A DNA stretch of 64,000 bases from NCBI RefSeq assembly GCF_027947575.1, contig NZ_CP116256.1, forward strand, positions 1,488,001 to 1,552,000. The letters are read 5' to 3'. A program made the position numbers and the translations under genes. Of this stretch, positions 8,420 to 47,008 are shown one piece after another; position 1 is the first letter of the stretch, and each line of letters starts with the position of its first letter. The DNA comes from Streptomyces rubrogriseus (GTDB lineage: Bacteria; Actinomycetota; Actinomycetes; Streptomycetales; Streptomycetaceae). The notes beneath the pieces were generated by a model, which saw nothing but the letters and a program-made list of their open reading frames with translations, did no database searches and was not told where the DNA came from.

Positions 8420-11400
8420 ATGACAGACGGGTTCGCGATCATCGGCATGGCCGCCCGGCTGCCTGGGGCGCACGGACCTGCCGAGTTCTGGCGGCTGCTG
8501 CGCTCGGGCACCGACGCGGTGACCGAACCGCCTCCGGACCGGTCGGCGATCGCGCGCCGCGGTGCGTTCCTCGACGACATCACCGGATTCGACGCGGGCT
8601 TCTTCGGCGTCTTCCCGCAAGAGGCCGCCGCCATGGACCCGCATCAGCGGCTCATGCTGGAGCTGGGCTGGGAAGCGCTGGAAAACGCCCGGCTCGGTCC
8701 GGACCGGCTGTCCGGCACCCAGACCGGCGTCTTCGTGGCCACGCCGGGGGAGACGGCACCGGTGTCCACGCCCGACCGGTACACCTTCGCCGGACGGCAG
8801 CGCGCCATGGTGGCCAACCGGCTGTCCCACGCGCTGGGGCTGCGGGGCCCCAGCCTCACCGTGGACACCGGGCAGTCCTCGTCGCTGGTCGCCGTCCACC
8901 TGGCCGTACAGGCGCTGCGCACCGGCGAGTGCGATCTGGCCGTGGCGGGCGGGGCCAGCCTGATGGTGGCCCCGGACGACGGAAGCGGCCTGGCCGAGAT
9001 GGGGGTGCTGTCCCCCGACGGCAGGTGCCACGTGTTCGACAGCCGTGCCAACGGCTTCGTGCGCGGGGAGGGCGGCGGCCTCGTCGTCGTCAAACGCCTC
9101 GCGGACGCGCTCGCCGACGGCGACCGGATCGCCGCGGTCGTCGTCGGCAGCGCGGTCAACAACGACGGGCACACGGACGGGCTGACGACCCCCAGTGCCC
9201 CGGCGCAACAGGCCCTCCTGGAGCGGGCGTACGACCGTGCCGGGGTCGATCCCGGCACGGTGCAGTACGTCGAACTGCACGGCACCGGCACGGCCGTGGG
9301 AGACCCGCTGGAGGCGGCCGGACTCGGTGCCGTACTGGGCACCGCCGCCAACCGCACCGCCCCGCTGCTGGTCGGGTCCGTCAAGACGAACATCGGCCAC
9401 CTGGAGGCCGCGGCCGGGATCGCCGGCCTGCTCAAGACGGTGCTGAGCGTGCAGCACCGAGAGGTGCCCGCCAGCCTGCACTTCGCGACGCCCAACCCGG
9501 ACATCCCGCTCGAGGAGTGGAACCTCCGGGTGAACACCCGGTCCCGGCCGTGGCCGGACGGCCCCGCCCTGGCCGGCGTCAGTTCCTTCGGCCTGGGCGG
9601 CACCAACTGCCACCTGGTGCTCGCCGAGGCACCACCGCGACCCGAGCCCGCGCCGCCCGTGCGGCCCGCCCCGCCCGTGGTGCCCTGGGTGCTGTCGGCG
9701 AAGAGCCGGGACGCCCTGCGCGGCCAGGCCCGGCGGCTGCTCGGCCCGGACGTCGCCGCCGACCCGGTGGACGTCGGGTTCTCGCTGGCGACGACCCGCA
9801 CGCTGTTTCCGGTGCGCGCGGTCGTGTTCGGCCGGGACCGGAGCGAACTGGAGTCCGGACTCGAAGAGCTGATCCGCGGTGACGGACCGGCCGTGGTCGG
9901 CTCCGCCGCGCAGCCGTTGACGGCGATGGCGCACGCGTTCGTGTCCGGCGGCGAGGCGGACTGGTCCGCCGTGTTCACCGGCCTCGGCGCGCGACCGGTG
10001 GACCTGCCGACCTACGCGTTCGAACGGTCGGCCGCCGAGGCTGTCCGACCGGCCGAGGCGGCCGAGGCCGCGTCGCACGACGGCCTCGGCGCGCTCGTCC
10101 GGGCCGAGATCGCCGCACAGATGGGGCTCGCCGACGCCGACGCCGTGCCGCGCGAACGCACCTTCCAGGACCTCGGCTTCAGCTCTCTGGCCGCGGTCGA
10201 ACTCGCCGAGCGGCTGTCGGCGGCGACCGGCACGCGCCTCGACGCGACCGTGGTCTTCGACCATCCGACCCCGGCCGCGCTGGCCACCCACCTCGCCCGC
10301 GGCACCGGTGACCACGCTCCCGACGACGACCCGGGCCACGGCCCCGACGACGCCCCCGGCCGCGATGCGCACGACCGGGCCGTACCCCACCCCGACGACG
10401 ATCCGGTCGTGATCGTGGGCATGGGCTGTCGTTATCCCGGCGGTGTCGCTTCGCCCGCCGAGTTGTGGGAGGTCGCGGAAGCCGGGCGTGATGTGATCTC
10501 TCCTTTCCCCACCGACCGGGGGTGGGACCTGGAGGCGCTGTACGACCCCGATCCGGACCGTCCGGGGACGACGTACGTGCGTGAGGGCGGGTTCCTCACC
10601 GGTGCGGGGGACTTCGATGCCGGGTTCTTCGGGATAGGCCCCAGTGAGGCGCTCGCGATGGATCCCCAGCAGCGGCTGGTGCTCGAGGTGGCCTGGGAGG
10701 CCCTGGAGGACGCGGGTGTGGACCCGCACTCCCTGGCCGGCAGCAGCACCGGGGTCTTCGTCGGCATGTACGGCTGGGACTCGAGCGAGTCCGTCGAGGG
10801 CTACCGCATCACCGGTGGCCTGTCGAGTGTCGCCTCGGGTCGGGTGGCGTATGCGCTGGGGTTGGAGGGGCCGGCGGTGAGTGTGGACACGGCGTGTTCG
10901 TCGTCGTTGGTGGCGGTGCATCTGGCGTGTCGTTCTTTGCGGTCGGGGGAGACGGATCTGGTGCTGGCGGGGGGTGCGACGGTGATGGCGACGCCGCGTG
11001 TCTTCGTCGAGCTCGCGCGGCAGCGGGGGTTGTCGCCGGACGGGCGGTGCAAGTCGTTTGCGGCGGGGGCGGATGGTACGGCGTGGGGTGAGGGTGTGGG
11101 GGTGGTGGTGTTGGAGCGGTTGTCGGATGCGCGGCGGCGTGGGCATGAGGTGTTGGCGGTGGTGCGGGGGAGTGCGGTGAATCAGGACGGTGCGTCGAAT
11201 GGGTTGACGGCGCCCAGTGGTGTGGCGCAGCAGCGGGTGATTCGGGCTGCGTTGGCGGACGGGGGGTTGTCGGTGGGGGATGTGGATGTGGTGGAGGCGC
11301 ATGGTACGGGGACGGTGTTGGGGGATCCGATCGAGGCGCAGGCGGTGTTGGCGACGTATGGGCGGGGGCGGGGTGCGCGGCGGCCGGTGTGGTTGGGGTC

Positions 11401-14400
11401 GTTGAAGTCGAATATCGGGCATACGCAGGCGGCGGCGGGTGTGGCGGGGTTGATCAAGATGGTGGGGGCGATGCGGCGTGGGGTGGTGCCGGCGACGTTG
11501 CATGTGGATGCGCCCAGTGAGCATGTGGCGTGGGAGTCGGGTGGGGTGCGGTTGGTGACGCGGGCGTGTCGGTGGCCGGAGACGGGGCGGGTGCGTCGGG
11601 CGGGGGTGTCGTCGTTCGGGATATCGGGGACCAACGCACACGTCGTCCTCGAACAGGCACCCGCACCGACGCCCGCACCCGAGGGCGAACATCCCTGGCC
11701 CGTGGTGCCGTGGGTGCTCTCGGCGAAGACCGGGGAGGCCCTGCGCCGGCAGGCACAGCGGCTGCTCGCGCACGCCGAGGAGCCGGACGCGGCCCGCCTG
11801 GGTCTGTCCCTGGCCACCACCCGCTCGCGGTTCGAGCATCGCGCGGTCGTGCTCGGTTCGGACACGGCGGGTCTGCGGGCCGGGCTGTCGGCGGTGGCCG
11901 CCGGCCTGCCCGCCGCGAACGTGACGTACGGCCGGGCCGAGGAGACGCCAGGGAAGACCGCGTTCCTCTTCCCCGGGCAGGGCGTGCAGTGGCGCGGCAT
12001 GGCCGCCGGGCTGCTGGACACCGCCCCCGTGTTCGCCGCGCGGATGGCCGATTGCGCACGGCTCATCGACCCCCAGGTCGACTGGTCCCTGCTCGACGTG
12101 GTCCGGGGAACCGACGACGACGCGTGGACGGAGCGCGTCGACGTCGTACAGCCCGCGCTGTTCGCCGTGCTGGTGTCGCTCGCCGCACTGTGGCGCTCGC
12201 TCGGGGTGCGGCCGGACGCCGTAGTGGGCACGTCGCAGGGCGAGATCGCGGCCGCCTGCGTAGCCGGTGCGCTCTCGCTGGAGGACGCGTGCCGGCTCGT
12301 CGTGGTCCGGTCGCGGCTGATGGCCGAGCGGCTCCCCGGCGCGATCCTCTCCGTCGACGCCCCCGAACCCGTGGTGGCCCGGCGGCTGCGCCCGGGACAG
12401 ACGGTGGCCGGCGTCAGCGGCCCGAACGGCACGACGGTGGCCGGTCCGGCGGACACCGTGGCCGACCTGTGCGCCGAACTTCGCGCGAGCGGGATCCGGG
12501 CCCGTGTCGTGGCGCCGTGCGCCTCGCACTCACCGCTCGTCGAGCCACTGGCGGACCGGTTCGCCGAACTGGCCTCCTTCGTCCGTCCGTCACCGGCCGC
12601 CACCCCCCTCTACTCGACGGTCACCGGTGCCGTCGTCGCCGGAGAGGACCTGACACCCGAGTACTGGTACCAGAACTGCCGGCAGCCGGTGTCCTTCCAG
12701 CGGTCCGTGGAGGCCCTGCTGGCCGACGGTTTCACCCACTTCGTGGAGTGCGCTCCGCACCCGGCGCTGGGCATCCACGTCGAGCAGACCGCCGAGTCGG
12801 CCGGCCGGACGGTCACCGTGACCGGCTCGCTGCGCCGCGGCGAGGGCGGACCGGCCCGCCTGTTGGCCAGTGCCGCGCAGCGGTACGTGCGCGGCGGCGA
12901 GGTGGTGTGGGACCCGGTGTTCGGCGGAGCCCGGCGACTGCCCCTGCCCACCTACGCGTTCGACCACAAGCGGTACTGGCTGATGCCGGAGCCGCGCACG
13001 GACGTGACCGGCCTGGGCCTGACCCCGGCGGAGCATCCGCTGGTCGGCGCCGTGACCGAACTGCCGGACACCTCCACGTCGGTGCTGACCGGGCGGCTCT
13101 CGCTCGACACGCACGGCTGGCTGGCCGATCACACCGCCGCCGGCGCGGTGCTGCTGCCGGCCACGGCCTTCGTCGAACTGGCGCTGCGCGCGGGCGCGGG
13201 GGCCGGACGCGGGGTACTGAGCGACCTGGTGATCCAGACGCCGCTCGTCCTGCCGGAACGGGGCGGCGCGGACCTGCGCGTGGTCGTGGACGGCGACGCG
13301 GTGGCGATCCACTCCCGCACCGACGAGGCATGGGTGACGCACGCGCGCGGCGAACTGGCCGCGGCCGCCGAACCGGCCGAACCGGGCCTGGAGGAGTGGC
13401 CACCGCCGGGGGCGAGCGCCGTCGACCTGGACGACGCCTACCGGCGGCTGGCCGAGCGCGGCTACGGATACGGACCGGCCTTCCGCGGTCTGCGCGCGGT
13501 GTGGCGTCGCGACGACGAGGTGTTCGCCGAGGTCGCGCTGCCCGCCGAGGCCGACCCGGGCGGGTTCGGCCTGCATCCCGCGCTCCTCGACGCCGCGTTG
13601 CACGCCGCTCTGCTCACCGTCACCGACCACGGCCTGGCGCTGCCGTTCTCCTGGACCGACGTCCGGCTGTCCGCGACCGGCGCCACCGCGCTGCGGGTCG
13701 TGATCAAGCGGCGCGGACCGGAGGACATCTCCCTCGCGGCGTACGACGAGTCCGGCCGGAACGTGTGCACCGTCGGGTCGGTGGTGCTGCGGCACCTGAC
13801 GCGGGAACAGCGGACCGCGGTCCTGGGAGGGGGACGGTCCGCCGCCCACCGCCTGCTGGAACCGGTGTGGCGGCCGCTGGACCCGCCGGCCGCGGTGCCG
13901 GTGTCCGTCGTGGACCTGGACGACCTGGACCGCCTGGACCGGACGGCGCCCGTCCCGGACGTCGCGGTGCTTCACGCCACCCGCGGCCCGGACGCCGCGC
14001 CGGACCGGGTCGCCGGGACACATGCCGCCGCCCACCGGGTGCTCGACGCGCTCCAGCACTGGCTGGCGGACGAACGGACGGCGGACAGCACCCTGTTGGT
14101 GGCCACCCGCGGCGCGGCGGGGCCCGCCCTCGACGGCGGTACCGACCCGGCCGCGGCCGCGGTGTGGGGCCTGGTGCGCGCGGCGCAGGCCGAGGCACCC
14201 GGCCGATTCGTCCTGGTCGACTCCGACGGGGACCTCGACGCGGCCACCGCCCTGGCGACCGGCGAACCCCAGGTGGCGATCAGGGCCGGTGTGCCGCACG
14301 CGGCCCGGCTGGTACCGGTGCCGGCCGGCCCTTCCTCCGCCCAGGGGCTCGATCCCGGCGGGCCGGTACTGATCACCGGCGGCACCGGTGGACTCGGCTC

Positions 14401-17400
14401 GGCACTGGCCCGCCACCTCGTCACCCGGCACGGCGTGCGGCGGCTGGTCCTCGCCTCACGGCGCGGGCCGGACGCCCCCGGGGCCGAGGACCTGGTCGCC
14501 GAGCTGACCGAACTCGGCGCCTCGGCACGGGTGGTGCGCTGCGACGTCACCGACCGCGCCGCACTCACCTCCCTGGTGACGCCCGACCTCTCCATGGTCG
14601 TCCACACCGCGGGCGTGCTCGACGACGGCGTACTCGACTCGCTGACCGCGGACCGAATGGACACGGTGCTGGCCCCGAAGGCCGACGCCGCCTGGTACCT
14701 GCACGAGGCCACCGCGCACACCGGTGCCGCGCTCGTGCTGTTCTCCTCGGTGCTCGGCGTCTGCGGCGGCATGGGACAGGCCAACTACGCGGCCGCCAAC
14801 GCCTTCCTCGACGCGCTGGCCGCCCACCGGCACGAGCGCGGGCTGCCCACCCTGTCCATCGGCTGGGGGCTGTGGGACCGCGCCACGGGCATGGCCGGCC
14901 AGTTGCGCGACGCGGACGTCGTCCGGCTCAGGCGGCGCGGCCTGGTGGAACTGCCGGTCGACTCGGGACTGGAGCTGTTCGACGCGGCCCTCGCCCAGCA
15001 CCGGCCGCACGTCGTCGCCATGCCGGTCGACCGCGTGGCACTCCAGGTCTCCGCCGACCTCGGTGAGCTGCCCGCGGTGCTGCGCGACCTGGCACCGCAC
15101 CGGCCCGCGGCGCCGTCCACCGTGCGTTCCGCGCCCACCGACCTGCTGGAGCTGACGCGGACCGAGACCGCGGTCGTGCTCGGCACGAGCGGCGAGCAGG
15201 TCGACCCCGACCGCAAGTTCCGGGACCTCGGCTTCGACTCCCTGCTCGCCGTCGAACTGCGCAACCGGCTCAAGACGGCCACCGGCATGGCGCTGCCCGC
15301 CGCCGTGGTCTTCGACTACCCGACCCCCGCCGCCCTCGCCGGGCACCTGCGCGACCGGGCCGCTGGCGGCACCGTACGGGCGGCGGACGAGCGGCCGGTG
15401 GCCGTGGTGGACGACACCGATCCGGTCGTCGTGGTGGGCATGGGCTGCCGGTACCCCGGCGGCATCGACTCGCCCGCCGGCCTGTGGGAGGCCGTGGCCG
15501 GCGCCCGGGAGGTGATCGGCGACTTCCCGGCCGACCGCGGCTGGCAGGTGGAGGGACTGTCCGTGCGGCGGGGCGGGTTCCTCGCCGGCGCGGGCGACTT
15601 CGACGCCGCCTTCTTCGGTATCAACCCGCACGAGGCGGCCGCCATGGATCCGCAGCAGCGTCTGCTGCTCGAAGTGTCCTGGGAGGCGCTGGAGCACGCC
15701 GGTATCGTCCCGGACACACTGGCCGGCAGCCGGACCGGGGTGTTCGCCGGAGTCATGTCCCAGGAGTACGGCGCGGGGGCCGACGAGGCGGCCGCCGGGG
15801 TGGAGGGCTACCGGCTGACCGGAAGCCAGGGCAGCGTCGCCTCCGGCCGGGTCGCCTACGCGCTCGGTCTGGAAGGGCCCGCCCTCACCGTGGACACGGC
15901 CTGTTCCTCGTCGCTGGTCGCGCTGCACCTGGCCGCGCGGTCGCTGCGGTCCGGCGAGTGCGACCTGGCGCTGGCCGCGGCCGCCACGGTGATCGCCACG
16001 CCGCGGGTGTTCGCGGAGTTCGCCAAGCAGGGCGGGCTGGCCTCCGACGGGCGCTGCAAGCCGTTCGGCGCCACGGCCGACGGGACGGGCTGGAGCGAGG
16101 GCGCGGGCGTGCTGGTCCTGGAGCGACTGTCCCGGGCCCGGGAACACGGGCACCGGGTCCTCGCGGTGGTGCGCGGCAGCGCGGTCAACCAGGACGGCGC
16201 CTCGAACGGGCTCACGGCGCCGAACGGCCCCGCCCAGCAGCGAGTGATCCGCGCCGCCCTCGCCGAGGCCGGCCTGTCCACCGGCGACGTCGACGTGCTG
16301 GAGGCCCACGGCACCGGCACGGTGCTGGGCGACCCCATCGAGGCGGAGGCCGTCCTGGCGACCTACGGCCAGGGACGGCCCGCCGAGCGGCCCCTGCTGC
16401 TCGGGTCGGTCAAGTCGAACATCGGGCACACCCAGGCCGCCGCCGGCATGGCCGGCGTGATCAAGATGATCGGCGCCCTCGACCGGGGCACGGTCCCCCC
16501 GTCCCTGCACGCAGACCCGCCGACGTCCGCGGTGGACTGGACGGGCGGGGCCGTGGCGCTGGCGACCGAGTCGGTCGACTGGCCGCCGACCGGCCGGCTC
16601 CGCCGGGCCGCGGTGTCGGCCTTCGGCATCTCCGGAACCAACGCCCACGTGATCCTCGAACAGGCACCCGTGCGGCCGGAGCCGGAGCCGGAGTTGGAGC
16701 CGGAACCGGAGTCGGTCGCCGGGGCAGAGGACCGGGCGGAGCTGGCGTGGGTGCTGTCCGCGCGCACCCGGCCCGCCTTGCGCGGCCAGGCCGCCCGGCT
16801 GCTCACCCACCTGCGGTCGAACGAGGACCTCGCCCCGGCGGCCGTCGCCACGGCTCTGGTGGCGACCCGGTCCCGGTTCCCGTACCGGGCGGTGGTCACC
16901 GGAACGGACCGCGCCGAACTGCTCGACCGACTGGCCGAGACGGCCCGGGCCGAACCGGCCGAGCCCGCGCCCGGGCCCCTCGTGTTCCTCTTCCCGGGCC
17001 ACGGCAGTCAGTACGCGAGCATGGGCGCGGGCCTGTACAACCGGTTCCGCACGTACGCCGACGCGCTGGACGAGGTGCTCGCCGCGCTCGACGCCAACCT
17101 GGAACGGCCGCTGGCCGACCTGCTGTTCGCCGAGAAGGGCTCACCGGGGGCGGCCCTCCTCCAGGACCGGACCGAGTTCACCCAGCCCGCGCTGTTCGCC
17201 GTCGAGGTCGCGCTCTTCCGACTCGTCGAGTCCCTCGGACTGCGGCCGGACCACCTGCTCGGCCACTCTTTCGGCGAACTGGCCGCGGCACACGTGGCCG
17301 GGGTCCTGTCGCTGCCCGACGCCGCCCGCCTGATCACCGCTCGGGGCCGTGTCATGAGCGCCCTGCCGCCGGGCAGCATGGCGCAGATCACGGCGGGTGC

Positions 17401-20398
17401 CGACGAGATCGAACCCACGCTGGAGCCCGGTGTCTCGATCGCCGCCCTGAACGCGCCGGGCGTCACGGTCGTCTCCGGCACGCCGGACGCGGTGGAACGG
17501 GTCGTCGCGCACTGGCGCGACCGCGGCAGGCGGTCGGCCCGGCTGCCCAACCGGCACGCCTTCCACTCGGCAGGTCTCGACGGACTGCTCGGCGAGTTCG
17601 CCGCGGTGGCCGAGGAGGTCACCTGCCACCCGCCGACCATCCCCATCGTGTCCGGACTCACCGGGGAACCGGCCGCCGGCGAGGACCTGCGTTCGGCCGA
17701 CTACTGGCTGCGGCACGCCCGGCAGCCCGTGCGTTTCCTGCCCGGCCTGCGCACGCTGGAGCAGCTCGGCGCGAAGACCTTCGTCGAGATCGGGCCGGGA
17801 CGCGCGTTGACCACCCTGGTGAAACGGAGCCTGCCCGACGCCGCCGCGTCGGCGCCGCTGCGCGGGCCGCGGCCACAGGAAACGGCGGGGCTGCTGCGCA
17901 CGCTCGGCGAACTGTTCGTGCGGGGGCTGCCGGTGGACTGGCAGGCGGTGTCCGGTGCGTCACCCGGACCCTTTGCGCAGCTTCCCACGTACGCCTTCGA
18001 CCGGCGGCGCTACTGGCTGTCCCCGAAACCGCCGGCCCGCACGGAGGGACTCGGCTTCGTCGAGGCGGATCACCCCCTGCTGAGCGCCCGGATGGAGCTG
18101 CCCGACAACGGCACGGTGATCCTGACCGGCTCGGTGTCCCGCGACGCGCCCCGCTGGCTGGCCGACCACACGGTGGCCGGGTCGGTCCTGGCACCCGGCA
18201 CACTCTTCGCCGAACTGGCGCTGCGCGCCGCCGCCGAGACGGGCGCGGACACCGTACGGGAACTGGTGATCCAGACCCCGCTCGTGCTGCCCGACCGGGG
18301 CTCACTGACCATGCAGGCCCTCGCCCGGCCGACCGGTGAGGTCGTGGTGTCGGCCCGCGCCGACGAACCGAAGGCACCGTGGGTGGTGCACGCCAGGGGG
18401 ACGGTGGCCACGACCGGCCGGGAGGCTCCGCCGGAGACCGGCACCTGGCCGCCCGCCGACGCGGTGCCGATCGACCCGGGCGACGCCTACGACCGGCTGG
18501 CCGGCCGCAGGCTCGACTACGGCCCGGCCTTCCGCGGACTGCGCGCGGTGTGGCGCCACGGCGACGAGGTGCTCGCCGAGGTCGCGCTGCCCGCCGACGC
18601 CGGAACGGCCCCGACCGGCTACGGCCTGCACCCCGCCCTGCTGGACAGCGCGCTGCAGGCGTGGCTGATCGGCACCGGACGCGAGGCCGCGGACGTCCCG
18701 TTCGCCTGGGAGGATGTCGTCCTGCACCGGGCCGGCGCGGACCGCCTGCGGGTCCGGCTGACCCCAGTGGGCCCCGACGGCCTGTCCGTCGCGGTGTACG
18801 ACGTGACCGGCCGGCCGGTGCTGACCGCCGAGTCGGTCCGGCTGCGACCGATGTCCACGCCGGCCGGGCGGCTGCGGGAACTGGCCTGGATTCCGCTGGA
18901 CCCCGGGCCGGCCGCCCCCGCCGAGGCCCCCGACGACGTGGTGGTGCTGGACGGGTTCCCGCCCGGTGCCGACGTCGTGTCCCGTGTGCACGCGGCGACG
19001 CGGACGGTGCTGGACGCCCTGACCGAACCGTCCCGGCGACGGTTGGTGATCGTCACGCACGGCGCGGTGGGGCTGCCGGGCGAGGACGTGCCGGACCTGG
19101 CCGGTGCCGCGGTGTGGGGCCTGGTGCGGTCCGCGCAGGCGGAACAGCCCGGCAGGTTCGTCCTGGTGGACACCGACGGCGAACCGGACCTGCCCGCGAT
19201 CCTGGCGACACGGCAGCCGCACCTGGTCATCCGGTCGGGCGTGCCGCACGCGCCTCGGCTGACGCCGCTGTCGGAACCCCCCACGGGCGAGGCCCCGTTC
19301 GGACCGGCGAGCACCGTACTTGTCACCGGTGGCACCGGCGGCCTCGGTGCACTGTTCGCCCGGCACCTGATCACGGCCCACGGCGTCCGGCGGCTGGTGC
19401 TGGCCGGCCGGCGCGGACCGGACGCTCCGGGGGCCACCGGGCTGCGGGCGGAGCTGACCGCGCTGGGCGCCGACGTCGAGATCGTGGCCTGCGACCTCGC
19501 CGACCCCGCGGCGGTGGCCGCGCTGGTGACGCGGGCACCGACCGCGGTGGTGCACGCGGCAGGCGTCCTGGACGACGGAGTGCTGGCGTCGCTGACGCCC
19601 TCCCGGCTGTCCGCCGTACTCCGGGCCAAGGCGGACGCGGCGTGGAACCTGCACGAGGCGACGCGTCACCTGGACCTGAGCGCGTTCGTGCTGTTCTCCT
19701 CGGTGGCGGGCACGCTCGGTTCGGCCGGACAGGCCAACTACGCCGCGGCCAACGCGTTCCTGGACGGGCTGGCCGCCCATCGCCGGGCCAACGGGCTGCC
19801 CGGTGTGTCCATCGCCTGGGGGCTGTGGGCCGGACGGCGCGGCATGACCGAACACCTGCGGGAGGCGGATCTGGCGCGGCTCGGCGACCGCGGGCTGGCC
19901 ACGATCACCGAGTCCGACGGTCTGGCCATGTTCGACGCCGCCCTGACCGCGCCGCGCGCACAGGTGACCGCGGCAACGCTGCGGGCGCCCGACCGCCCGG
20001 ACGGACGCGACGACGCGCTGCGGCTGCGGCACGAACTGGCCGGCCTGGGCCACGACGAGCAGCGGCGGCGGGTGCTGGACCTGCTGAGCCGCCGGCTGGC
20101 GGCAGTGCTCGGCCACGGCGACGGGCGGCCGCTCGACACCGACCTCACCTTCCGCGACCTGGGCGTCGACTCGCTCATGGCGATCGAACTGCGCGACGCC
20201 CTGGCCCCGCTGACCGAGGTGCCGTTGCCGGCCACGGCGATCTTCGACCACCCGACTCCCGCAGCGCTCACCGACCACATCCACCGCAACCTCGTCGCGC
20301 CGGAACCTGACCCGCGGCCGAACCGGAAGGAGCCGATCGACACCATGGACACGGAAGAACTGATCGCGGCCGCGCTGGGCGAGGAAGGCCCGCGATGA
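8420..20398 (+). CDS. Modular type I PKS A: KSQ-ACP loader, then KS-AT-DH-KR-ACP, KS-AT-DH-KR-ACP
   Basis: 3992 residues. The loader has a KS with Gln152 (VDTGQSSSL, a KSQ decarboxylase type), a KS-to-AT linker at about 420-530 with no AT, and an ACP (Ser in GFSSL, about 585). Module 1: KS Cys826; AT with GTSQGE (nucleophile Ser1272, His replaced by Thr1271) and CASH at 1367-1370, a branched-extender type; DH with HxxxGxxxxP (His1571) and Asp1724; KR with LDD and Tyr2123 (B-type); ACP Ser2274. Module 2: KS Cys2495; AT GHSFGE and HAFH (3046-3049), malonyl type; DH His3250 and Asp3409; KR LDD and Tyr3774; ACP Ser3918. A short C-terminal docking tail (about 3970-3992) follows. The predicted output is a 4-methyl-2,4-hexadienoyl-type chain; the loader ACP must be charged in trans. 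The ATG has GAGGAGAGG upstream. Confidence 0.94.
10390..11665 (+). repeat. KS-coding repeat, copy 1 (module 1 of PKS A)
   Basis: This KS block is almost base-for-base the same as 20644-21927 in PKS B, except for a variable patch around 10770-10840. From about 10840 to 11620 the codons switch to TTG, GTG, TGT, CGT and GGT where the rest of the gene uses C/G-ending synonyms such as CTC, GTC and CGC. The tract keeps that odd usage in both copies, which suggests a recent copy or gene-conversion event from a donor with different codon habits. Confidence 0.85.
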
Positions 20399-20562
20399 CC
20401 GACCGGACCGCGACGACACGGCCCGCCCCGGACCCTTGGTACCGGGCCCCGGCCACCGTGCTCTGGGAATCCCTCGTGTGGCTGGGCTGCTCATGGCTGC
20501 CGGTCCCCGTCGTGATCGACGAGCACGGTCCCCACGGCTTCGCGGAGGAGGACCCGCGATGA
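20395..20562 (+). CDS. 55-residue Trp-rich small protein coupled between PKS A and PKS B
   Basis: The ATG overlaps the PKS A stop (ATGA at 20395) and its stop overlaps the PKS B start (ATGA at 20559), so the frame is closed precisely on both sides. The product has four Trp (15, 24, 29, 34), a hydrophobic middle ([20 protein letters not shown], about 22-41) and an acidic end (EEDPR). It has no signal peptide and the hydrophobic stretch is short for a membrane span. I do not recognise a family. The double overlap and high-GC codon usage argue that it is translated. A structural or helper peptide for the PKS, or a relic of a degraded gene, are both possible. Confidence 0.6.
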
Positions 20563-23563: not shown

Positions 23564-23584
23564 CCCGGCGGCTCGGTCGGGCGG

Positions 23585-23610
23585 CCCGCACCGGTCATGG
23601 CCGGTGCGGG
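23585..23610. terminator. Bidirectional hairpin between convergent AfsA-like and TetR genes
   Basis: CCCGCACCGG and CCGGTGCGGG form a 10-bp stem with a 6-nt loop where the two long convergent transcription units meet. It overlaps the TetR stop codon and lacks a T-tract. Confidence 0.7.
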
Positions 23611-24239
23611 CGCAGCACCGCGTCGAGTTCGCCCGCGGTGAGCGGGGACGCGGGCAGCGGCGTCGCCGCGGGACGGGCGCGCAGGCCGTCGAGCAGCAGT
23701 CGCAGCGGACGCCGCCAGGCGCCGGGAGCGGTGCCGGCGAGCCCGGGAAGGGCACGGCCCAGCACGGCCAGCGCGAACAGCAGGTCTTCGGCGGAGACGT
23801 CGGGGCGGATCGTGCCCTGCCCGCGGCCACGGTGGAGCAGGGCGCGGACGGTCCGGCGGTGCCGGTCGCGCACCGCCGCCAGGGACGGCGCGTCTTCGGG
23901 ACAGGCACCGCCGCGACACCCGGATCCGCACTCGGACGGCAGCACCGGGAACGTAGTGTCCAGGTAGGCCGTCAGAGCGGTCCACGCGTCCTGGACGGCC
24001 ATGGCACGCTCGCCCGCCGCGACGAACTCGGCGAGCGTGCCGGAGAAGACCTCCTCCACGAGCGCCCGCCGGCTGGGGAAGTGGCGGTAGAGCGTGCCGC
24101 TGCTCACCCCCGCGCGCCGGGCGACCCCGTCCAGCGGGGCGTGCAGACCCTCCGCGGTGAACGCCTCCCGGGCCGCCCGCACCAGCAGACCGCGGTTGCG
24201 CGTCGCGTCGCTTCGCCGCGGGGGCGGTCCGTGGTTCAC
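23595..24239 (-). CDS. TetR-family transcriptional regulator
   Basis: 214 residues from a GTG that overlaps the carboxylase stop (GTGA). The helix-turn-helix is LDGVARRAGVSSGTLYRHFPSRRALVEEVF (about 38-67), the TetR hallmark. The ligand domain contains a Cys cluster, ECGSGCRGGACPED, that could respond to oxidation or thiols. As the last gene of the long minus-strand run it is expressed with its likely targets. Its closeness to an AfsA-like gene raises the idea of a butyrolactone receptor, but I see no specific receptor features, so the ligand is open. Confidence 0.87.
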   Translation of the reverse strand: MNHGPPPRRSDATRNRGLLVRAAREAFTAEGLHAPLDGVARRAGVSSGTLYRHFPSRRALVEEVFSGTLAEFVAAGERAMAVQDAWTALTAYLDTTFPVLPSECGSGCRGGACPEDAPSLAAVRDRHRRTVRALLHRGRGQGTIRPDVSAEDLLFALAVLGRALPGLAGTAPGAWRRPLRLLLDGLRARPAATPLPASPLTAGELDAVLRPHRP

Positions 24240-25804: not shown

Positions 25805-25847
25805 GCTGGTCTCCCCTTCGGTGGCGGCGGCTGCCCGGTGCATGGAG

Positions 25848-37914: not shown

Positions 37915-40900
37915 CTAGTTGTCGAGGCCCTCGCGGGCCAGGCGGACCAGCTCCGCGACGTCCATGTCGTCGATCTGGTCGAGGTCGGCCTCCGCGGATC
38001 CGGCGGCGTCCGCTTCCTCGGGAACCGGGCCCGGCTCGGGCGCGGGGCTCTGCTCGGGGAAGAGCTGCGAGCCGAGCAGCTCCGCCAGCGCCTCCGGCGA
38101 CGGGTGGTCGAAGACGAGGGTGGCCGGGAGCCGGAGACCGGTGCGGCGGCTCAGGCGGTTGCGCAGCTCCACCGAGGTGAGTGAGGTGAAGCCCAGGTCC
38201 TTGAACCCGCGACGCACGTCGACGGCCTGCGGCGAGGCGTGGTCGAGGACCGTCGCGGCCTCCGCCCGCACCAGCGCCAGCAGTTCCTTCAGCCGGTCCG
38301 CCGGACTCAGCGGTGCCAGCCGCTCGGCCAGGGTGGCCGGGGCGGCGGAGACCGCCGCCGTCGTCCCCGAGGCCGCCGCCGGCAGGGCCCGGCCGCGCAC
38401 CAGTCGGCGCAGCACGGGCGGTACGTCGGCACCCCGGGCGCGCAGTGCCGCGGCGTCCAGCCGCGCCACCACCAGCTGGGGCTCGTCCACCTGGAGGGCC
38501 GCGTCGAACAGCTCCACGCCCAGCCGGGGAGCGATCGCCGTCATACCGGTACTGCGGGCCAGCCGCGCCCGGTCCTCCTCGCTCAGAGCGGCCTCCATGC
38601 CACCCTCGGCCCACAGTCCCCAGTCCAGCGACACCGCGGGCAGACCCTGGGCCCTGCGATGCCGGGCCAGAGCGTCGAGGAACACGTTGGCGGCCGCGTA
38701 ATTGGCCTGGCCGGGCCCCCCGACCAGACCCTGCACGGAGGAGAACAGCACGAAGGCGGACAGCTCGTGGTCCCGGGTCAGCCGGTGGAGGTTCCACGCG
38801 GCGTCGGCCTTGGGGCGCAGTACGTCGTCCAGGCGCGACCCGTCCAGGCTCTCCAGCAGTCCGTCGGCGAGCACGCCGGCGGTGTGCACGACGCCGGTGA
38901 GCGGACGGTCGTCCGGGACTCCGGCCAGCAGCTCGGCCAGCGCCTCGGGATCGGCCGCGTCACAGGCCTCCACGGAGACCCGCGCGCCGAGCGCCTCCAA
39001 CTCGGCCCGCAGCGAGGCTGCTCCGGGTGCGTCCGCTCCCCGACGGCTGGTCAGGACGAAACTGCGGACGCCGTGCCGGGTGGCCAGGTGACGAGCCGTC
39101 AGTGCGCCCAGGGCGCCGGTGCCACCGGTGATCAGTACGGTGCCGTCCGGATCCCATCGCACGGACACCGACCCGTCCCGCGCGCCGCCCGCCCCGACCC
39201 GGGCCAGCCGCGGTGCCAGGAACTCGTCGTCTCTGACCGCCAGTTGGGGTTCCTGGGTCAGCAGTGCCCCGCCCAGTCCGCCGGGCAGCGGCCCTTCGCG
39301 GTCCAGGTCGAGCAGCGCGAACAGATCGGGATGCTCCGACTGGGCCGAGCGGACCAGCCCCCACAGCCCCGCGTGCGCGAGATCGGCGACGTCCGTGTCC
39401 CGGCCCGCCGCGACGGCGCCCCGGGTGACCACCACCAGCCGGGCGTCGGCCAGCCGCTCGTCGGCGAGCCAGGTCTGCGCGACCTCCAGCATCCGGCGGG
39501 CGGCCGCCCGGACCGCCGCGCCGTCCACCGGCTCGTCCGGCTCGCCGATCAGGGGGACGAACACCAGGTCGGGCCGTTCGCCCCCGTCCGCCACCGCCTT
39601 GCTCACGGCGGCCAGGTCCGGGTGCGCGGACACCGTGTGCCCGGCCCGGCCGGCGGCCCTGGCCAGCTCGGGCAGCTGCGGGCCCACCACCGCCCAGCGT
39701 TCCGCCGGTACCGCGGCGGGACGGGTGACGGGCGTCCAGTCCAGCCGGAACAGCGCGTCCTGCTCGGCGCCCCCGGCGGCGGCGAGCCGGTCCGCGGACA
39801 CCGGCCGCCGGGACAGGGAGGCGACGGTCGCCACCGGGTTGCCGTCGGTGTCCGTCACGTGCAGCGCCACCGCGTTCTCCCCGGCCCGCGAGATCCGGAC
39901 CCGGACCGCGGCCGCTCCGCCGGCGTGGAACCGGACGCCGGAGAAGACGAAGGGGAGCTGCGTCCGCCCGGTGCGCGGCAGCACACCCAGCTCCACTGCG
40001 TGCAGCGCCGCGTCCAGCAGGGCCGGGTGGAGCCCGAACCGGGCGGCGTCCTCGCCCAGGCCCTCGGGCAGGGCCAGTTCCGCGAAGACCTCCTCGCCCA
40101 GGCGCCACGCCTTGCGCAGGCCCTGGAAGGCAGGACCGTACGCGTATCCGCTGCGGGCCAGTTCCTCGTACCAGCCCTCCAGGGGCACGGCCTCGGCGCC
40201 CCGGGGCGGCCACTCGGCCGCATCGGCCGCCGGCTCCGGGTCGGCCGCCTCGGCCAGGGTGCCGCCTGCATGGCGCGTCCACGCCGTGTCCGGCGGCGCG
40301 TCGGCGGGGCGGGCGTACACGCCGACCGATCGCCTGCCGTCCTGGTCGGGCTCCTTCACGGCGACCTGTATGTGCACGCCGCCCTCGGCGGGCAGCACCA
40401 GCGGCGCCTCCAGCGCCAGCTCCTCCAGCAGGTCGCTCCCGGCCTGGCGGCCCGCGTGCAGCGCCAGTTCGACGAAGCCGGTGCCCGGGAACAGGGTGGT
40501 GCCGAGCGCGGCGTGGTCCGCCAGCCACGCGTCGGTGTCCTGACCGAGCCGACCGGTCACCACCAGCCCGTCACCACCGGCGAGCTGCAGGCTCGCGCCG
40601 AGCAACGCATGATCGGCGCCGGCGAGTCCCAGCCCGTCGGGCTCGGCACTCTGACGCGGGGGGCTGATCCAGTAGGGGTGGTGTTGGAAGGGGTAGGTGG
40701 GGAGGGGGTGGTGGGGGTGGGGGGAGGGTGGGGGTGAAGGTGATGGGGTGGCCGTGGGTCCAGGCGTGGGTGAGGTTGGTGAGGAGTTGGTGGGGTCCGT
40801 TGGTGTTGCGGCGGAGGGTGGTGAGGGTGTGGATGGGGGTGTTGTGGTGGTGGGCGGTGTTTTCGATGTGGTGGGTGAGGACGGGGTGGGGGGAGGGTTC

Positions 40901-43900
40901 GAGGTAGGTGGTGTGTCCGTCGTTGAGGAGTTGGGTGATGGTGGGGTGGAAGGCGACGGGTTGGCGGGCGTTGTTGTACCAGTGGTGGGGGTGAGGTTGG
41001 TGCCGGGGGTGGGGTGGGTGGTGGTGGTGGAGTAGAGGGGGTGTGGGTGGGTTGGGGGTGAGGTGGTTGAGGTCGTTGAGGATGTGGTGTTTGAGGGGTT
41101 CGAGGGCGGGGCTGTGGCTGGGGACGGTGGCGGGGATGAGGTGGGCGCGGGTTCCTTGTTGGCGGAGGGTGTTGATGAGGGTGTGGAGTTGGTGGGTGGG
41201 GCTGAGCGATGTTGGTGGTGGTGGGGCTGTTGGTGCTTAAGCGATGTGGAGGTTGGGGTGGTGGGTGAGGTGGGGGGTGAGTTGTTGGGGGGTGGCTTCG
41301 ATGGTGGCGATGGCGCCGTGGCCGGTGAGGTGGGTGTGGAAGAGGTGGGAGCGGGTGGTGATGATGTGGGCTGCTTGTTGGAGGGTGAGGGCGCTAAGCG
41401 AGGTGGGCGGCGGTGATTTCGCCTTGGGAGTGGCCGGTGTAGGCGTGGGGGGTGAGGCCGTGGGTGTGCCAGGTTTGGGCGAGTGCGGTGTTGATGGTGA
41501 AGAGGAGGGGTTGGAGGAGGTCGATGCGTTGGAGGAGTTCGGGTTGGTGGGTGGTGTTGCGGAGGGTTTGTTCGAGGTCGAAGGGGAGGTGGGGTTGGAG
41601 GGTGTGGGTGATGGTGTGGAAGTGGTGGGCGTAGGGGGGGTAGTGGTCGAGGAGGTCGAGGGTCATGCCGGGCCATTGGCTGCCTTGTCCGGGGAGGACG
41701 AAGACGAGGGGGCCGGGGGGTTGGTGGGTGGTGTGTTGGGTGAGGTTGGGGTGGGGTTGGTCGTTGGTGAGGGCGGTGAGGGTGGTGAGGAGTTCGTGGT
41801 GGGTGGTGGCGATGATGGCGGCGCGGTGGGGGTGGTGGGTGCGTTCGGTTGCGAGGGTGCGGGCGATGGCGGGGAGGGGGTGTGGGGGTGTTGGGTGAGG
41901 TGGTGGTGGAGGCGTTGGGCTTGGGCGTGTAGGGCGGGTTCGGTTCTGGCGGAGAGGAGGAAGGGGAGGGGGGTGGGTGTTTCGGTGGGTGTGGGGGTGG
42001 TGGGCCGGTCGGCCACCCGCAACACCCCGGCCGACTCCACCGGTGCCCGGGAGTGGGCTTCTTCTGCTTCGGGGGTGTGTTCGGGTGCTTCTTCGATGAT
42101 GGCGTGGGCGTTGGTGCCGCTGATACCGAAGGCGGAGATGCCGGCGCGGCGGGGGCGGTCGGGGCGTGCGAGCCAGGGGTGTGTTTCGGTGAGCAGGCGG
42201 ACGTGGCCGCTGTCCCAGTCGACCATCGGGGTGGGTTCGTCGACGTGCAGGGTCTTGGGGAGTTGCTCGTGTCGTAGGGCCTGCACCATTTTGATGAGGC
42301 CGGCGACGCCGGCGGCTGCCTGGGTGTGGCCGAGGTTGGATTTGACGGAGCCGAGCCAGAGGGGTTGACCGTCGGGTCGGTTCTGGCCGTAGGTGGCCAG
42401 GAGGGCCTGGGCTTCGATGGGGTCGCCGAGGCGGGTGCCGGTGCCGTGGGCTTCGACGGCGTCGATGTCGGCGGGGGTGAGGCGGGCGTTGGCGAGGGCC
42501 TGGCGGATGACGCGTTGCTGGGAGGGTCCGTTGGGTGCGGTGAGTCCGTTGCTGGCGCCGTCCTGGTTGACGGCGGTGCCGCGGACGACGGCCAGGACGC
42601 GGTGTCCGTTGCGGCGGGCGTCGCTCAGACGCTCCAGGACCAGCATGCCGGCCCCCTCGGCCCAGCCCGTGCCGTCGGCCCGGGACGAGAAGGCCTTGCA
42701 CCGGCCGTCGGCGGACAGGGCCCGCTGCCGGGTGAGTTCGATGAAGATCCCCGGTGTCGGCATCACCGTGACCCCGCCGGCCAGGGCCAGCGAGGACTCC
42801 CCGCGGCGCAGCGACTGGCAGGCCAGGTGCACGGCCGTCAGGGACGCCGAGCAGGCGGTGTCCACCGTCAGCGCGGGCCCTTCCAGACCCAGCGCGTAGG
42901 AGATGCGCCCGGACGCCACGCTGGGCGTGCTGCCGGTCATCAGATAGCCCTCGGTGGTCGCCGTGCCCTGGTCGAGACGGGGCCCGTAGTCCTGGAAGGT
43001 CGCGCCGACGAACACCCCCGTCGCCGAGCCCGCGAGGTCGGCCGGGACGATGCCGGCGTTCTCCAGGGCCTCCCAGGAGGTCTCCAGCAGCACCCGCTGC
43101 TGCGGGTCCATCGCGGCGGCCTCGCGCGGGGAGATGCCGAAGAACTCCGCGTCGAAGCCCGCCACGTCCCGCAGGAACCCGCCCTCGCGCACGTAGTGCT
43201 TGCCCGGCTGCTCGCCCTCCGGGTCGTACAGGCCGGCCACGTCCCAGCCGCGGTCCGTGGGGAAGGGCCCGATGCGTTCCTCCCCCGCGGCGAGGACCTG
43301 CCACAGCTCCTCCGGCGAACCGATGCCGCCGGGGAAGCGGCAGGCCATGCTCACGACGGCGATCGGCTCGTCCGCGTCGGCGGCCACCGGCCGCGGGCCG
43401 TCCGACCCGGTGCCGTCGGCCTCCGCGTCGCCGAGCAGGTCGGCCCGCAGCCGCCTGATCACCGCCTCCGGCGTCGGGTGGTCGTACACCAGAGTCGTCG
43501 GCAGACTCATCCCGGTGGCGGCCCCGAGCCGGTTGCGCAACTCGACCCCCGCCAGGGAGTCGAAGCCCAGCTCCTTGAACGGACGGCCGAGGTCCAGGGT
43601 CTCCGGCCGTTCCTCCTCCAGGACTCCCGCCACCTCGGCCCGCACCAGGTCCGGCAGCTCCGCGGCGAGGTCCGCGCGGCGCGCGTCCCGCTCCGCCTCG
43701 CCGCGGGCCCCGCCGACCGCGGACGGTGCGGCGGCGTCCGGTTCGCGGCGGCGGGTCAGCACCCGGCCCGAGCGCAGCGCGAGTTCACCCGCCTCGGAGC
43801 GCAGCGCCTTCGTCAGGGGGCGCAGCGACTCGCCGGCCGGCCCCAGGTCGAGCAGGGACAACCGGCCCGGATGCCGAGGCAGCAACGCGCGGACCGCCTC

Positions 43901-46900
43901 CCAGACCTCGGCCGGTGCGGGGCCGGGAGCCTCGTCCCAGGGAACGGCGACGACCGCGCCCCGGGTCACCACGGTCAGCCGACGGGAGCCGAACCCTTCG
44001 TCCTCCAGCCAGGAGCGCACCAGTTCGGCCGTCCCGGCGGCGTCGGCCCCGTCCGGTGCCAGGGGCAGCAGCACGTGCGAGGGCTGCCGGGCGCCGCTCT
44101 CGACCACGCCGCGCAGCGCGTCCGGACCCGAATGCAGTTCGACGCCCGACCCGACACCGGTCAGCGCCGGACCCAGACCGAACGGGTCCGGGCCCACCAC
44201 GGCCCAGGCGGTGCCCACGAACCCGTCCGCGGGCTCGGGGGCGTCCTCGGAGAGCACGGTCCAGTCGGGCCCCGCGGGCGGGACCGCACCGGCCAGCCAG
44301 TGCGAGGAACGCTGGAAGGCGTACGTGGGCAACGGCGCACGCGAGGTCGCCGCGCCCGCGACCTCGTCGAGTACCCTCTCCCAGTCCCAGTCCACGCCGT
44401 GCGCGTGCAACTCGGCGAGCGCGGTGAGCAGCGTCGGCACGCTCTCCCGGCCGGCCCGCTGCGTGGCGGTGAAGACGGAGCCCTCCCGCCGGGCGCTGTC
44501 CCGGCCCATGGCGGTGAGCACCGCGTCCGGGCCGACCTCGACGAAGGCCGTCACCCCCTCCGCCTCCAGGCAACGGACGCCGTCGAGGAAGCGCACCGCC
44601 TCCCGGGCGTGCCGCACCCAGTAGTCGGCCGTGGCGATCTCGGCCGGGTCGGCCACGGTGCCGGTCAGGTTGGACACCACGGGGATGCGGGGCGTGCCGT
44701 AGTCCAGACCGGCGGCGATCTCGCGGAACTCCGCCAGCACGGGCTCCATCAGCGGCGAGTGGAAGGCGTGGCTGACCTTGAGACGCCGGGTCTTGCGGCC
44801 CCGTTCGCGCCACTGGGCCAACACGGCCGTGACGGCTTCCTCGTCCCCGGAGATCACGGTCGAGTCGGGGGAGTTGACCGCGGCCACCACGACGCGGCCG
44901 TCATGGACCGCCACGGCCGGGAGCAGTTCCTCCTCGCTCGCCTGGACCGCCGCCATCGCGCCGCCGCCGGGAAGTCGCTGCATCAGGCGGCCGCGGGCGG
45001 CCACCAGGGCGCAGGCGTCCGACAGGGAGAGCACACCGCCGACATGGGCCGCGACCAGCTCGCCGACCGAGTGGCCGAGGAGCAGGTCCGGCCGCACCCC
45101 CCAGCTCTCCAGCAGACGGAACAGAGCCGTCTCGAAGGCGAACAGCGCGGGCTGGGTGCAACCCGTCTGGTCCAGCAGAGCGCTCCGGTCGCCGTCCCCG
45201 CCGTCCCCGCCGTCCTCGGGGGCGAGCAGCAGGTCGCGCAGCGGGCGTTCGACCGCGCTCTCCAACTCGGCGCACACCGCGTCGAAGCTCCGCGCGAACA
45301 CCGGGAAGCGCCGGTGCAGTTCCCGCGCCATGCCGAGCCGTTGACTGCCCTGGCCGGTGAAGAGAAAGGCGGTGCGGCCGCCCGCCGTCTGCCCGACGGC
45401 ACCGGCGGCCGGCCGGCGGCCGTTCGCCACCTGCCGCAGAGCCGTCTCCAGCCCGGCCCGGTCGCGCGGGAGGAGCACCGCCCGGTGCGGGAAGGCCGTC
45501 CTGGTGCGGGCCAGGGCGTGGCCGAGTTCGCCCAGCTCCAGCTCCGGGTGTTCCCCGAGGTGGTCCAGCAGCCGCTGGGCCTGGTCCCGCAACGCGTCCG
45601 TGCCACGGGCCGACAGAGGCACCGGAACGCGTTCGGGGGCGGTCGTGGGACGCGCCGGCACCGGCGCGTCCGTGCCCCGTTCCCGCGGCCAGGCGGACAG
45701 AACCAGGTGGCAGTTGGTGCCGCCCATGCCGAAGGAACTGACGCCGGCGAGCAACGGTGCGTCCTCCGGACCGTCCTCCAGTTCGGTCGGCGCCACGTTG
45801 ACGCGCAGGCCGAGCCGGTCCAGAGGGATGCGCGGGTTGGGGGTGCGGAAGTTGAGGCTGGGCACCAGCGTCCGCTCGCGCAGACACAGCACGGCCTTGA
45901 TCAGACCGGCCACCCCGGCGGCCCCCTCCAGGTGGCCGATGTTGGTCTTCACGGAGCCGACCAGCAGCGGGTGCGCGGCGTCGCGGCCCTGGCCGAGCAC
46001 CGCACCGAGGGCGTCCGCCTCGACCGGGTCGCCGACCGGTGTGCCGGTGCCGTGCAGTTCCACGAACCGGACCCGGCCCGGTGCGACGCCGCTGCGGCGG
46101 TAGGCCTCGCGCAGGACCTCGCGCTGCGCCTCGCCGTGCGGCGCGGTCAGGGTGTCGCCGCCACCGTCGTTGTTGACGGCGCCCCCCAGGACGACCGCGT
46201 GCACGGTGTCCCGGTCGGCGAGTGCCTGGCGCAGGGTCTTGAGGACGACGAGGCCCCCGCCCTCACCGCGGACGTAACCGTCGGCCCGCTCGTCGAAGGT
46301 GTGGGTGCGACCCCGCGGGGAGAGCGCGCCGAACCGCTCGCCGAGAGTGAAGCCCCCCGGCCCCAGGGCCAGGCTGACGCCACCCGCGAGCGCCACCGAC
46401 GACGCGCCGCTCAGCAGGCTCTCGCAGGCCAGCTGCACGGCGACCAGGGAGGACGACTGGGCGCTGTCCAGCACCATGCTTGGCCCGCGCAGCCCCAGCG
46501 CGTAGGAGAGCCGGTTGGCGATCAGCGCCCGGCTGGTGCCGGTGATGCTGTGGTGCGTGACGGCCGCGGGTCCCAGGGTGTCCGAGAGCCGCGCGTAGTC
46601 GTCCCAGATCGCTCCGACGAAGACCCCCGCCGGGGTGCCGGACAGCCGTTCCGGCACGATGCCCGCGTGCTCCAGCGCCTCCCAGCCCAGTTCCAGCAGC
46701 AGGCGCTGCTGCGGATCCATCGCGGCCGCCTCGCGTGCGGGGATGCCGAAGAACTCGGCGTCGAAACCGTCGATCCGGTCCAGGAACCCGCCGCGCAGCG
46801 GCTGCCCCGCGGTCGGGGCGCCGGCCGCGGACAGCCACGGTCGGTCGGCCGGTGGCTCCCCGACGGCCTCCCGGCCCTCGGTCAGCAGTTTCCAGAACTC

Positions 46901-47008
46901 CGCGGGGCCGGCCGCCCCGGGGAAGCGGCAGGAGAGGCCGACGACGGCGACGGCCCGGTCCGGTATGTCCAGCGGTATGGACCGTGCGGCTCCGGATTGG
47001 TTCGACAT
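37915..47008 (-). CDS. Type I PKS E: KSQ-AT-ACP loader and KS-AT-DH-KR-ACP module, frame broken in the second AT
   Basis: About 3030 residues when the frame is mentally repaired; as deposited it splits near 41400-41670. Loader: KS with Gln184 ([12 protein letters not shown] type), AT with GHSVGE (Ser647) and HAFH (747-750), malonyl type. A KR structural subdomain remnant follows without a catalytic half ([12 protein letters not shown] region), then ACP Ser1151. Together these give acetyl by malonyl decarboxylation. Module 1: KS Cys1386; AT copy 2 with GHSQGEI and VPSH; DH with HxxxGxxxxP ([11 protein letters not shown]) and LLDAALH; KR with [15 protein letters not shown] and NYAAAN (active, probably B-type); ACP GFTSL. 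The C-terminal docking tail is [16 protein letters not shown] 47008 has GGAGGAGC upstream. First protein of line E-D-C; output is a 2-alkyl-2-enoyl chain. Confidence 0.9.
40665..42031 (-). repeat. AT-coding repeat, copy 2 (PKS E) with altered GCCGGC sites
   Basis: Matches 30157-31519. All three GCCGGC sites of copy 1 (30694, 30727, 30883) appear here as GCTGAGC (41201), GCTTAAGC (41235) and GCTAAGC (41393), adding 1, 2 and 1 bases. One G-run is longer (41715-41720) and one shorter (41054-41058). The extra bases exactly explain the 4-bp length difference. Confidence 0.92.
42069..42661 (-). repeat. KS-coding repeat (PKS E copy)
   Basis: Third near-identical KS stretch. Upstream of 42661 the sequence diverges into a different KS N-terminal half ([14 protein letters not shown]), so this KS looks like a mosaic. 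Confidence 0.83.

Follow-up and report, generated by a model that had tools for sequence, protein, structure and literature searches.

Modular type I polyketide synthase (PKS) lines that begin at a KSQ domain are described as priming aromatic type II PKSs in the hedamycin and kidamycin pathways (PMC10646177), and in gladiostatin biosynthesis an AfsA-like (PBS) domain is described as releasing 3-oxo chains with dihydroxyacetone phosphate (PMC7756379). At the level of DNA, genetic repeats of intense nucleotide skews (GRINS) are described as stretches of 1–2 kb, >80% identical within the same PKS, with absolute GC and TA skews >0.25, lying over AT domains (PMC10394414, PMC9899208). Here we describe a locus of Streptomyces rubrogriseus (contig NZ_CP116256.1), analysed as one stretch of 64,000 nucleotides (the window, to which all positions refer), which carries an aromatic type II PKS, consisting of a ketosynthase (KSalpha), a chain length factor (CLF) and an acyl carrier protein (ACP), together with two KSQ-initiated type I lines, A-B and E-D-C.

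With a slight preference, we read the locus as two biosynthetic clusters joined as a supercluster and serving separate pathways. Block 1, from ~3.4 kb left of the window to ~24 kb, would be a conserved type I/type II hybrid cluster, and block 2 (~24–57 kb) a separate KSQ-initiated line, E(+D')-D-C-TE, which probably makes a product of its own and would have been co-inherited, perhaps also co-regulated, with block 1. The machinery is of known kinds and the combination is uncommon, a type I/type II hybrid joined to a second modular cluster. A preliminary description of this DNA had proposed instead that three chain-building systems supply a single product. Of that proposal the association of line A-B with the type II PKS stands, being conserved in eight genomes; the membership of line E-D-C does not follow from the comparison.

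Conservation and separability of the two blocks

Block 1 was compared in eight genomes, those of S. rubrogriseus, Streptomyces sp. MZ04, Actinacidiphila cocklensis, NRRL F-5123, Streptomyces sp. NBC_01198, NBC_00433, Actinacidiphila paucisporea and Actinomadura rayongensis. The ACP-KSalpha-CLF set, the LuxR-type regulator, the fused cupin-ABM protein, the second ABM-type protein, both SnoaL-like proteins, the metallo-beta-lactamase-fold hydrolase, PKS A, PKS B and AfsA are present in all eight, and fadMO1 in seven, Actinomadura rayongensis having no match to it in the stretches compared. The methyltransferase LCM1 is counted in 8/8 in the feature table below, although Actinomadura rayongensis gave no match to it in the stretches compared. 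Because the block is conserved together in the eight genomes, the type II PKS and line A-B very probably share one pathway, as far as gene content can indicate. In the genus sample (392 genomes) 14 have CLF matches at the cut-off of 1e-120, none above 63% identity outside S. rubrogriseus itself; among the best 80 of 514 relatives scanned by name, the CLF is 86% identical in A. cocklensis, 84% in MZ04, 81% in NRRL F-5123 and 76% in Actinomadura rayongensis. The cupin-ABM marker was found in 7 of the 394 genomes of the family sample (cut-off 1e-50), namely all members of the comparison set except Actinomadura rayongensis, and a protein search returned 37 proteins of at least 63% identity, that of S. 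rubrogriseus included, among its best 120 matches, whose genomic context was not seen. Among plasmid records, no cupin-ABM match covered 80% of the query (30 records), ACAD matches reached at most 40% (4 records) and the best KSalpha match was 69.6% (93 records).

Block 2 was traced through its acyl-CoA dehydrogenase (ACAD). An ortholog is present in two of the eight block-1 genomes, S. rubrogriseus and MZ04 (64% identical); of the other six, five have a paralog of at most 32% identity and Actinomadura rayongensis has no match at 1e-40. The three systems are not conserved together across the eight genomes. In the genus sample 23 of the 392 genomes, S. rubrogriseus included, match the ACAD at 1e-60, and in six of them (G067, G239, G033, G256, G275 and G187) the identity is 51–55%; all six are missing from the CLF matches at 1e-120. 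In G067 a CCR, a KSIII, a KSQ PKS, a FAD monooxygenase, PccB, two P450s and the ACAD lie within 40 kb, and the genome has no CLF match at that cut-off. One genome, G285, matches both the CLF (55%) and the ACAD (43%), the two matches lying on separate contigs. Near the ACAD of G256 (locus L035) a contig end is close, and an MFS gene, P450s and the ACAD are the only genes in view. KSIII 2 is widespread, with matches in 37 of the 392 genomes at 1e-110, S. rubrogriseus included. The occurrence of block-2 relatives alone would mean that the three systems do not have to work on the same molecule.

MZ04 is represented by a single 62.6-kb contig on which both blocks are adjacent but in a different order. 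It starts with E and the supply genes, P450 b, the ACAD, a regulator, an SDR, a luciferase-like gene, P450 genes and the carboxylase; there follow the run from LuxR to AfsA, the TetR-type regulator, and then the FAD, methyltransferase and type II genes. The contig ends before C, D and the FAD monooxygenase of block 2, and these three genes are outside the comparison. In a tree of 14 concatenated block-1 proteins S. rubrogriseus and MZ04 are sisters with an ultrafast bootstrap (UFBoot) of 100, and they are 79.1% identical, so that the joining of the blocks is most simply explained as one event in their common line which outlasted the rearrangement. The pairing thus probably arose once and lasted, and its persistence would favour some benefit of proximity, be it joint regulation, joint transfer or a joint product.

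The last of these benefits leads back to one molecule from all three systems, in which the A-B chain and an acyl or pyrone unit from E-D-C would be attached to an aromatic core. The adjacency of the blocks in both genomes despite their different order is in keeping with it, as are the position of the MZ04 block-2 carboxylase directly before the LuxR-cupin-ABM-A run of block 1 and the survival of the linkage in sisters that have diverged to 79.1% identity. Yet six of eight block-1 genomes are without the ACAD ortholog, a block-2-like cluster stands alone in G067, C ends in a TE of its own with HxlR and MFS genes beside block 2, and the pairing has a single origin on the tree, not one repeated by convergence. 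We therefore hold the single molecule to be unlikely: a three-in-one product is possible, but it is not the default reading. The preliminary description had itself named two neighbouring but unlinked clusters as the finding that would overturn it; the ACAD distribution and the lone G067 cluster come near to that, although the blocks are still adjacent in MZ04.

Line A-B, its AfsA partner and the type II PKS

The first KS of PKS A has the motif DTGQSSSL, with the glutamine at position 152 that had been read there before, and this glutamine is kept in 8/8 orthologs of A, that of S. rubrogriseus included. The remaining KS domains of A (two), B, C and D have DTACSSSL. In the favoured reading of two clusters, line A-B would start by decarboxylation at the KSQ, form a dienoyl chain through the two reducing modules of A and add one unreduced ketide on B. 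The dienoyl-type chain foreseen earlier is thereby retained as part of the line, but B adds a non-reducing module and AfsA follows it. The domain scan found no KR or DH in B, where AT, KR and DH are all absent, and because B is without KR and DH a 3-oxo thioester is expected on its ACP.

The profile search gave 19 AT matches in the genome of S. rubrogriseus, 8 of them in the window: one each in the two extension modules of A, in D and in the E loading module, and two pieces each in C and E/D'. Neither the A loading module nor B contains any of the 19. In an alignment of these two modules from S. rubrogriseus, MZ04 and A. cocklensis, the KS-to-AT linker passes straight into the post-AT linker and the ACP. 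The A loading module of Actinomadura rayongensis has an AT motif, GHSQGE, 428 residues past its KSQ motif; that of S. rubrogriseus has no AT motif between the KSQ and the next KS. Both AT-less modules would have to receive a malonyl-type unit in trans. A discrete AT gene stands right after AfsA in five of the eight genomes, all of the Actinacidiphila group (L120, 17709–18704; G500, G508, G446 and G437), four copies being 72–84% identical to that of A. cocklensis. It is absent from S. rubrogriseus and MZ04, where the best matches are at most 39% identical and lie within frames of at least 827 aa, and Actinomadura rayongensis has no ortholog by identity, its one match being 36% identical in a 428-aa frame.

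B and AfsA overlap or abut (gap <50 bases) in 8/8 genomes, which argues that AfsA acts on the product of B. Both halves of AfsA are conserved in the alignment of all eight sequences, each half having an E..RQ motif; a PDB search with AfsA gave no match at E up to 1. By analogy with gladiostatin, the neighbouring AfsA would most likely accept the 3-oxo chain from B and join it to dihydroxyacetone phosphate, giving a butenolide. The B-AfsA arrangement suggests such a butenolide-type release, either in place of type II PKS priming or in addition to it. The TetR-type gene beside AfsA was considered as a butyrolactone receptor and set aside, having no NCBIfam match; it is convergent to AfsA in S. 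rubrogriseus, whereas in MZ04 it immediately follows AfsA and shares its strand.

In block 1 as we read it, KSalpha, CLF and ACP would build an aromatic core, and the cupin-ABM, ABM, SnoaL, metallo-beta-lactamase-fold, FAD and methyltransferase genes would tailor it, judging from their families. KSalpha and CLF had been noted before and are confirmed as actinorhodin-like, just upstream of the span described at that time; the ACP gene directly before KSalpha had been missed. Actinorhodin-type CLFs carry a glutamine at the site that is alanine here. Among the 80 homologs listed it is present in 13 and absent in 67, and the closest homologs of any kind are without it, so that its loss, tried as a sign of non-acetate priming, does not discriminate. 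A 500-aa minus-strand reading frame (6839–8341) was dismissed as antisense, with no NCBIfam or Pfam match and with plus-strand genes covering it. Protein searches with the cupin-ABM protein and the FAD monooxygenase gave no informative names among the best 120 matches each.

A credible but weaker candidate than butenolide release is that A-B makes a non-acetate primer for KSalpha/CLF, as in hedamycin and kidamycin, with AfsA serving another purpose, for example editing or cyclisation. ATs resembling HedF may serve as editing thioesterases (ZhuC of R1128). Besides the KSQ precedent, the primer explanation draws on the discrete AT after AfsA, whose substrate motif is QAFH in three of the five relatives, the motif reported for HedF and AT1-1 (PMC10646177), and on a CLF without the glutamine. 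But the other two discrete ATs have QPFH and a sequence that the pattern did not match, the gene is missing in S. rubrogriseus and MZ04, the glutamine is lost as commonly as the counts above indicate, and the constant neighbourhood of B and AfsA points to AfsA acting on what B makes.

Several points weigh against the reading of two joined clusters with AfsA release in block 1. AfsA scores 172.9 bits against NF041195 over nearly the full model, under the butyrolactone-synthase cut-off of 200. Neither the cis AT in the A loading module nor the discrete AT is found in S. rubrogriseus and MZ04, where the only candidate donors for loading in trans would be the ATs of block 2 or a FabD-like gene, which in S. 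rubrogriseus is an AT match within a frame of 370 aa that has KS and ACP matches of FAS type nearby. The block-1 tree is built from 14 proteins of 8 genomes, and support among the Actinacidiphila-group members is weak (32, 55 and 72). The surroundings of block 2 were inspected for three of the six genomes with the closest ACAD, and the full cluster was seen in G067 only. Finally, the adjacency kept by S. rubrogriseus and MZ04 after rearrangement can also mean one pathway. Since the discrete AT is missing in the lineage where block 2 joined, one of the block-2 ATs may load A and B in trans. In a fuller scheme with this loading, the three builders would converge on one metabolite with a type II aromatic core, a butenolide that a stand-alone AfsA releases from the KSQ line whose loading and terminal modules are AT-less, and a branched pyrone or acyl arm from the second KSQ line; we regard this fuller scheme as improbable.

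Two further observations concern the DNA and protein of line A-B. Skewed stretches (10701–11600 and 21001–21900) cover two KS domains, that of module 1 of A and that of B, which are nearly alike in protein, perhaps through recent gene conversion within the line. The docking domains for A to B and for D' to D, read by eye, appear alike.

Line E-D-C, its supply genes and its repeats

The first KS of PKS E has DSAQSSSL, and its Gln184, which the preliminary description had also recognised as a KSQ, is found in MZ04 and G067 as well, so that neither of the two KSQ glutamines is accidental. The second KS of E retains the cysteine, with one residue changed (TACSASL). The KRs of C and D are without the Tyr motif that the KRs of A and D' carry, and D' combines an intact KR motif with a DH domain match. 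The AT substrate motifs are HAFH in the loading module of E, QAGH in D and VPSH in C; PMC10646177 assigns HAFH to malonyl, YASH to methylmalonyl and VASH to ethylmalonyl. The motifs and the two KSIII/CCR pairs suggest branched extender units, and the pairs would supply the alkylmalonyl units of block 2. E-D-C would make a tetraketide that is branched and for the most part unreduced, plausibly a pyrone. When a TE releases a 3,5-dioxo chain, the chain closes to a 4-hydroxy-pyrone. The FAD monooxygenase, the P450s and the ACAD would tailor the block-2 product.

The ATs of C and E/D' are spread over several frames with in-frame stops, and the frame of C itself gives no AT match. Both lie in GRINS copies, near-identical to each other, with GC/TA skews of 0.64/0.44 (copy 1) and 0.62/0.40 (copy 2). 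In their central 1.36 kb the two copies show five short length differences, of which two are at C runs and three at GCCGGC, with substitutions only alongside. The three differences at GCCGGC are in one copy and could be base-calling errors at a methylated motif in an uncorrected repeat. Such broken frames raise the question whether E-D-C is a decayed pseudo-line and block 2 makes nothing. The AT pieces with in-frame stops are what decay would leave, and at least one break occupies the equivalent position in the two copies (near 31373 in C, near 41885 in E/D'). This shared break is either a systematic error or a genuine lesion that conversion has carried from one copy to the other, and it speaks against reading the breaks as errors; comparison of the copies cannot show an error there. 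Nevertheless, all breaks found lie within the two near-identical copies, the five differences fall at C runs and GCCGGC sites as expected of uncorrected consensus errors, and the domains flanking the broken ATs are open. In another PKS cluster of the same genome, at 5.88–5.89 Mb, three GRINS ATs with similar skew, whose mutual identity was unmeasured, each form one open frame. We consider a decayed line very unlikely, and the frame breaks are probably for the most part consensus errors within the repeat, in which case E and D' would be one gene split inside its AT.

The remaining observations in and around block 2 are of lesser weight. ARAGORN places a tRNA-Leu on the minus strand at 35506–35595, within the reading frame of PKS D, probably a false positive. 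Between 59980 and 63999 there are a KSIII-like gene, an SDR, a luciferase-like monooxygenase and an acyl-CoA dehydrogenase; genes 70% identical to the SDR and luciferase-like genes adjoin block 2 in MZ04. Three KSIII genes, a CCR and a fragment resembling the E loading module occur at L135/L136 (G263:C172).

Features of the window, in order of position, with the evidence on which each was named
Feature	Position	Strand	Evidence
LCM-family methyltransferase, block 1	494..1333	-	PF04072; in 8/8 block-1 genomes
Type II acyl carrier protein, block 1	1552..1791 (start approximate)	+	PP-binding Pfam match 1570-1767; orthologs in relatives
KSalpha, aromatic type II PKS	1794..3059	+	closest PDB chain actinorhodin KS 1tqy_A, 563.7 bits
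Chain length factor (CLF)	3056..4324	+	closest PDB chain 1tqy_B, 372.2 bits; Gln site = Ala, motif SDAAAG
LuxR/NarL-type regulator	4692..5462	+	matches under curated cut-offs
Fused cupin-ABM protein, block-1 marker	5582..6304	+	Cupin_2 and ABM
Second ABM-type protein	6301..6675	+	named from translation; orthologs in relatives
SnoaL-like protein 1	6672..7061	+	named from translation; no NCBIfam match
Metallo-beta-lactamase-fold hydrolase	7061..7966	+	matches under curated cut-offs
SnoaL-like protein 2	7962..8375	+	match under cut-off
PKS A: KSQ-ACP (no AT) / KS-AT-DH-KR-ACP / KS-AT-DH-KR-ACP	8420..20398	+	domain scans, motifs
PKS B: KS-ACP, no AT, no reducing domains	20559..22640 (start approximate)	+	domain scans, alignment
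AfsA-family hotdog protein, overlaps B stop codon	22637..23563	+	PF03756
TetR-type regulator	23600..24288	-	named from translation; no NCBIfam match
Acyl-CoA carboxylase beta subunit (PccB-like), block 2	24236..25843	-	domain matches; 87% in MZ04
FAD monooxygenase, block 2	25848..27362	-	domain matches, protein search
PKS C: KS-AT(frame-broken)-KR(no Tyr)-ACP-TE	27359..33001	-	domain scans
GRINS copy 1, AT of C	30101..31900	-	skew, repeats, alignment
PKS D: KS-AT(QAGH)-KR(no Tyr)-ACP	33026..37885	-	domain scans, motifs
D': DH-KR-ACP, rear part of module split from E	37915..41676	-	domain scans
GRINS copy 2, AT of E/D'	40601..42600	-	skew, repeats, alignment
PKS E: KSQ-AT-ACP / KS-AT(front part)	41663..47008	-	domain scans, motifs
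KSIII 1	47994..49091	-	domain match
CCR 1	49160..50400 (ends approximate)	-	translation and similarity to CCR 2
KSIII 2	50397..51386	-	domain match
CCR 2	51419..52765	-	TIGR01751 above cut-off
P450 a	52862..54205 (start approximate)	-	under curated cut-offs
P450 b	54150..55442	-	domain match
Acyl-CoA dehydrogenase (ACAD), block-2 marker	55485..57212	-	domain match; ortholog scans
HxlR regulator	57394..57816	-	domain match
MFS exporter	57875..59431	+	domain match

Comparison with known systems

Block 1 represents a conserved cluster family for which our search of open-access literature, which leaves most subscription journals outside, found no described product; the search gave precedents for parts of the locus and no compound matching it. 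Because an aromatic PKS is combined in block 1 with a KSQ start, modules without AT and an AfsA partner, AfsA release and type II priming can be compared directly. The joining of block 2 and the lack of the discrete AT in the same lineage provide an example of how a supercluster may form.

The minimal PKS resembles those of the whiE and actinorhodin type, in that KSalpha and CLF are nearest to the actinorhodin KS/CLF in the PDB and the cupin half of the fused protein has relatives among cupins, including one that takes its name from a whiE locus. It differs in having the ACP before KSalpha, the fused cupin-ABM protein and the linked KSQ type I line. The repeats over the ATs of C and E/D' satisfy both the duplication (>80% identity) and the strong-skew criteria of GRINS as set out in PMC10394414 and PMC9899208, although here the frame is broken inside both copies, probably by consensus error. 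With the gamma-butyrolactone synthases ScbA and AfsA the AfsA of block 1 shares the family PF03756, but it falls under the equivalog cut-off, the adjacent TetR-type gene has no NCBIfam match, and it stands beside PKS B in 8/8 genomes.

The likeness to gladiostatin, as that system is presented in PMC7756379, is an AfsA-family protein directly behind the last PKS module, which in our locus has no KR or DH; here, however, it is a separate actinobacterial protein of predicted activity, initiation is by KSQ and an aromatic type II PKS is present. With hedamycin and kidamycin, on the account given in PMC10646177, block 1 has in common a KSQ-type modular type I line and an aromatic KS/CLF in the same conserved cluster. 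Unlike in those pathways, glycosylation genes, for which no systematic search was made, are absent from the annotated block-1 genes, and in S. rubrogriseus the loading module of A is without an AT. Behind A come B, an additional AT-less protein of KS-ACP type, and AfsA, and a further KSQ line adjoins the cluster.

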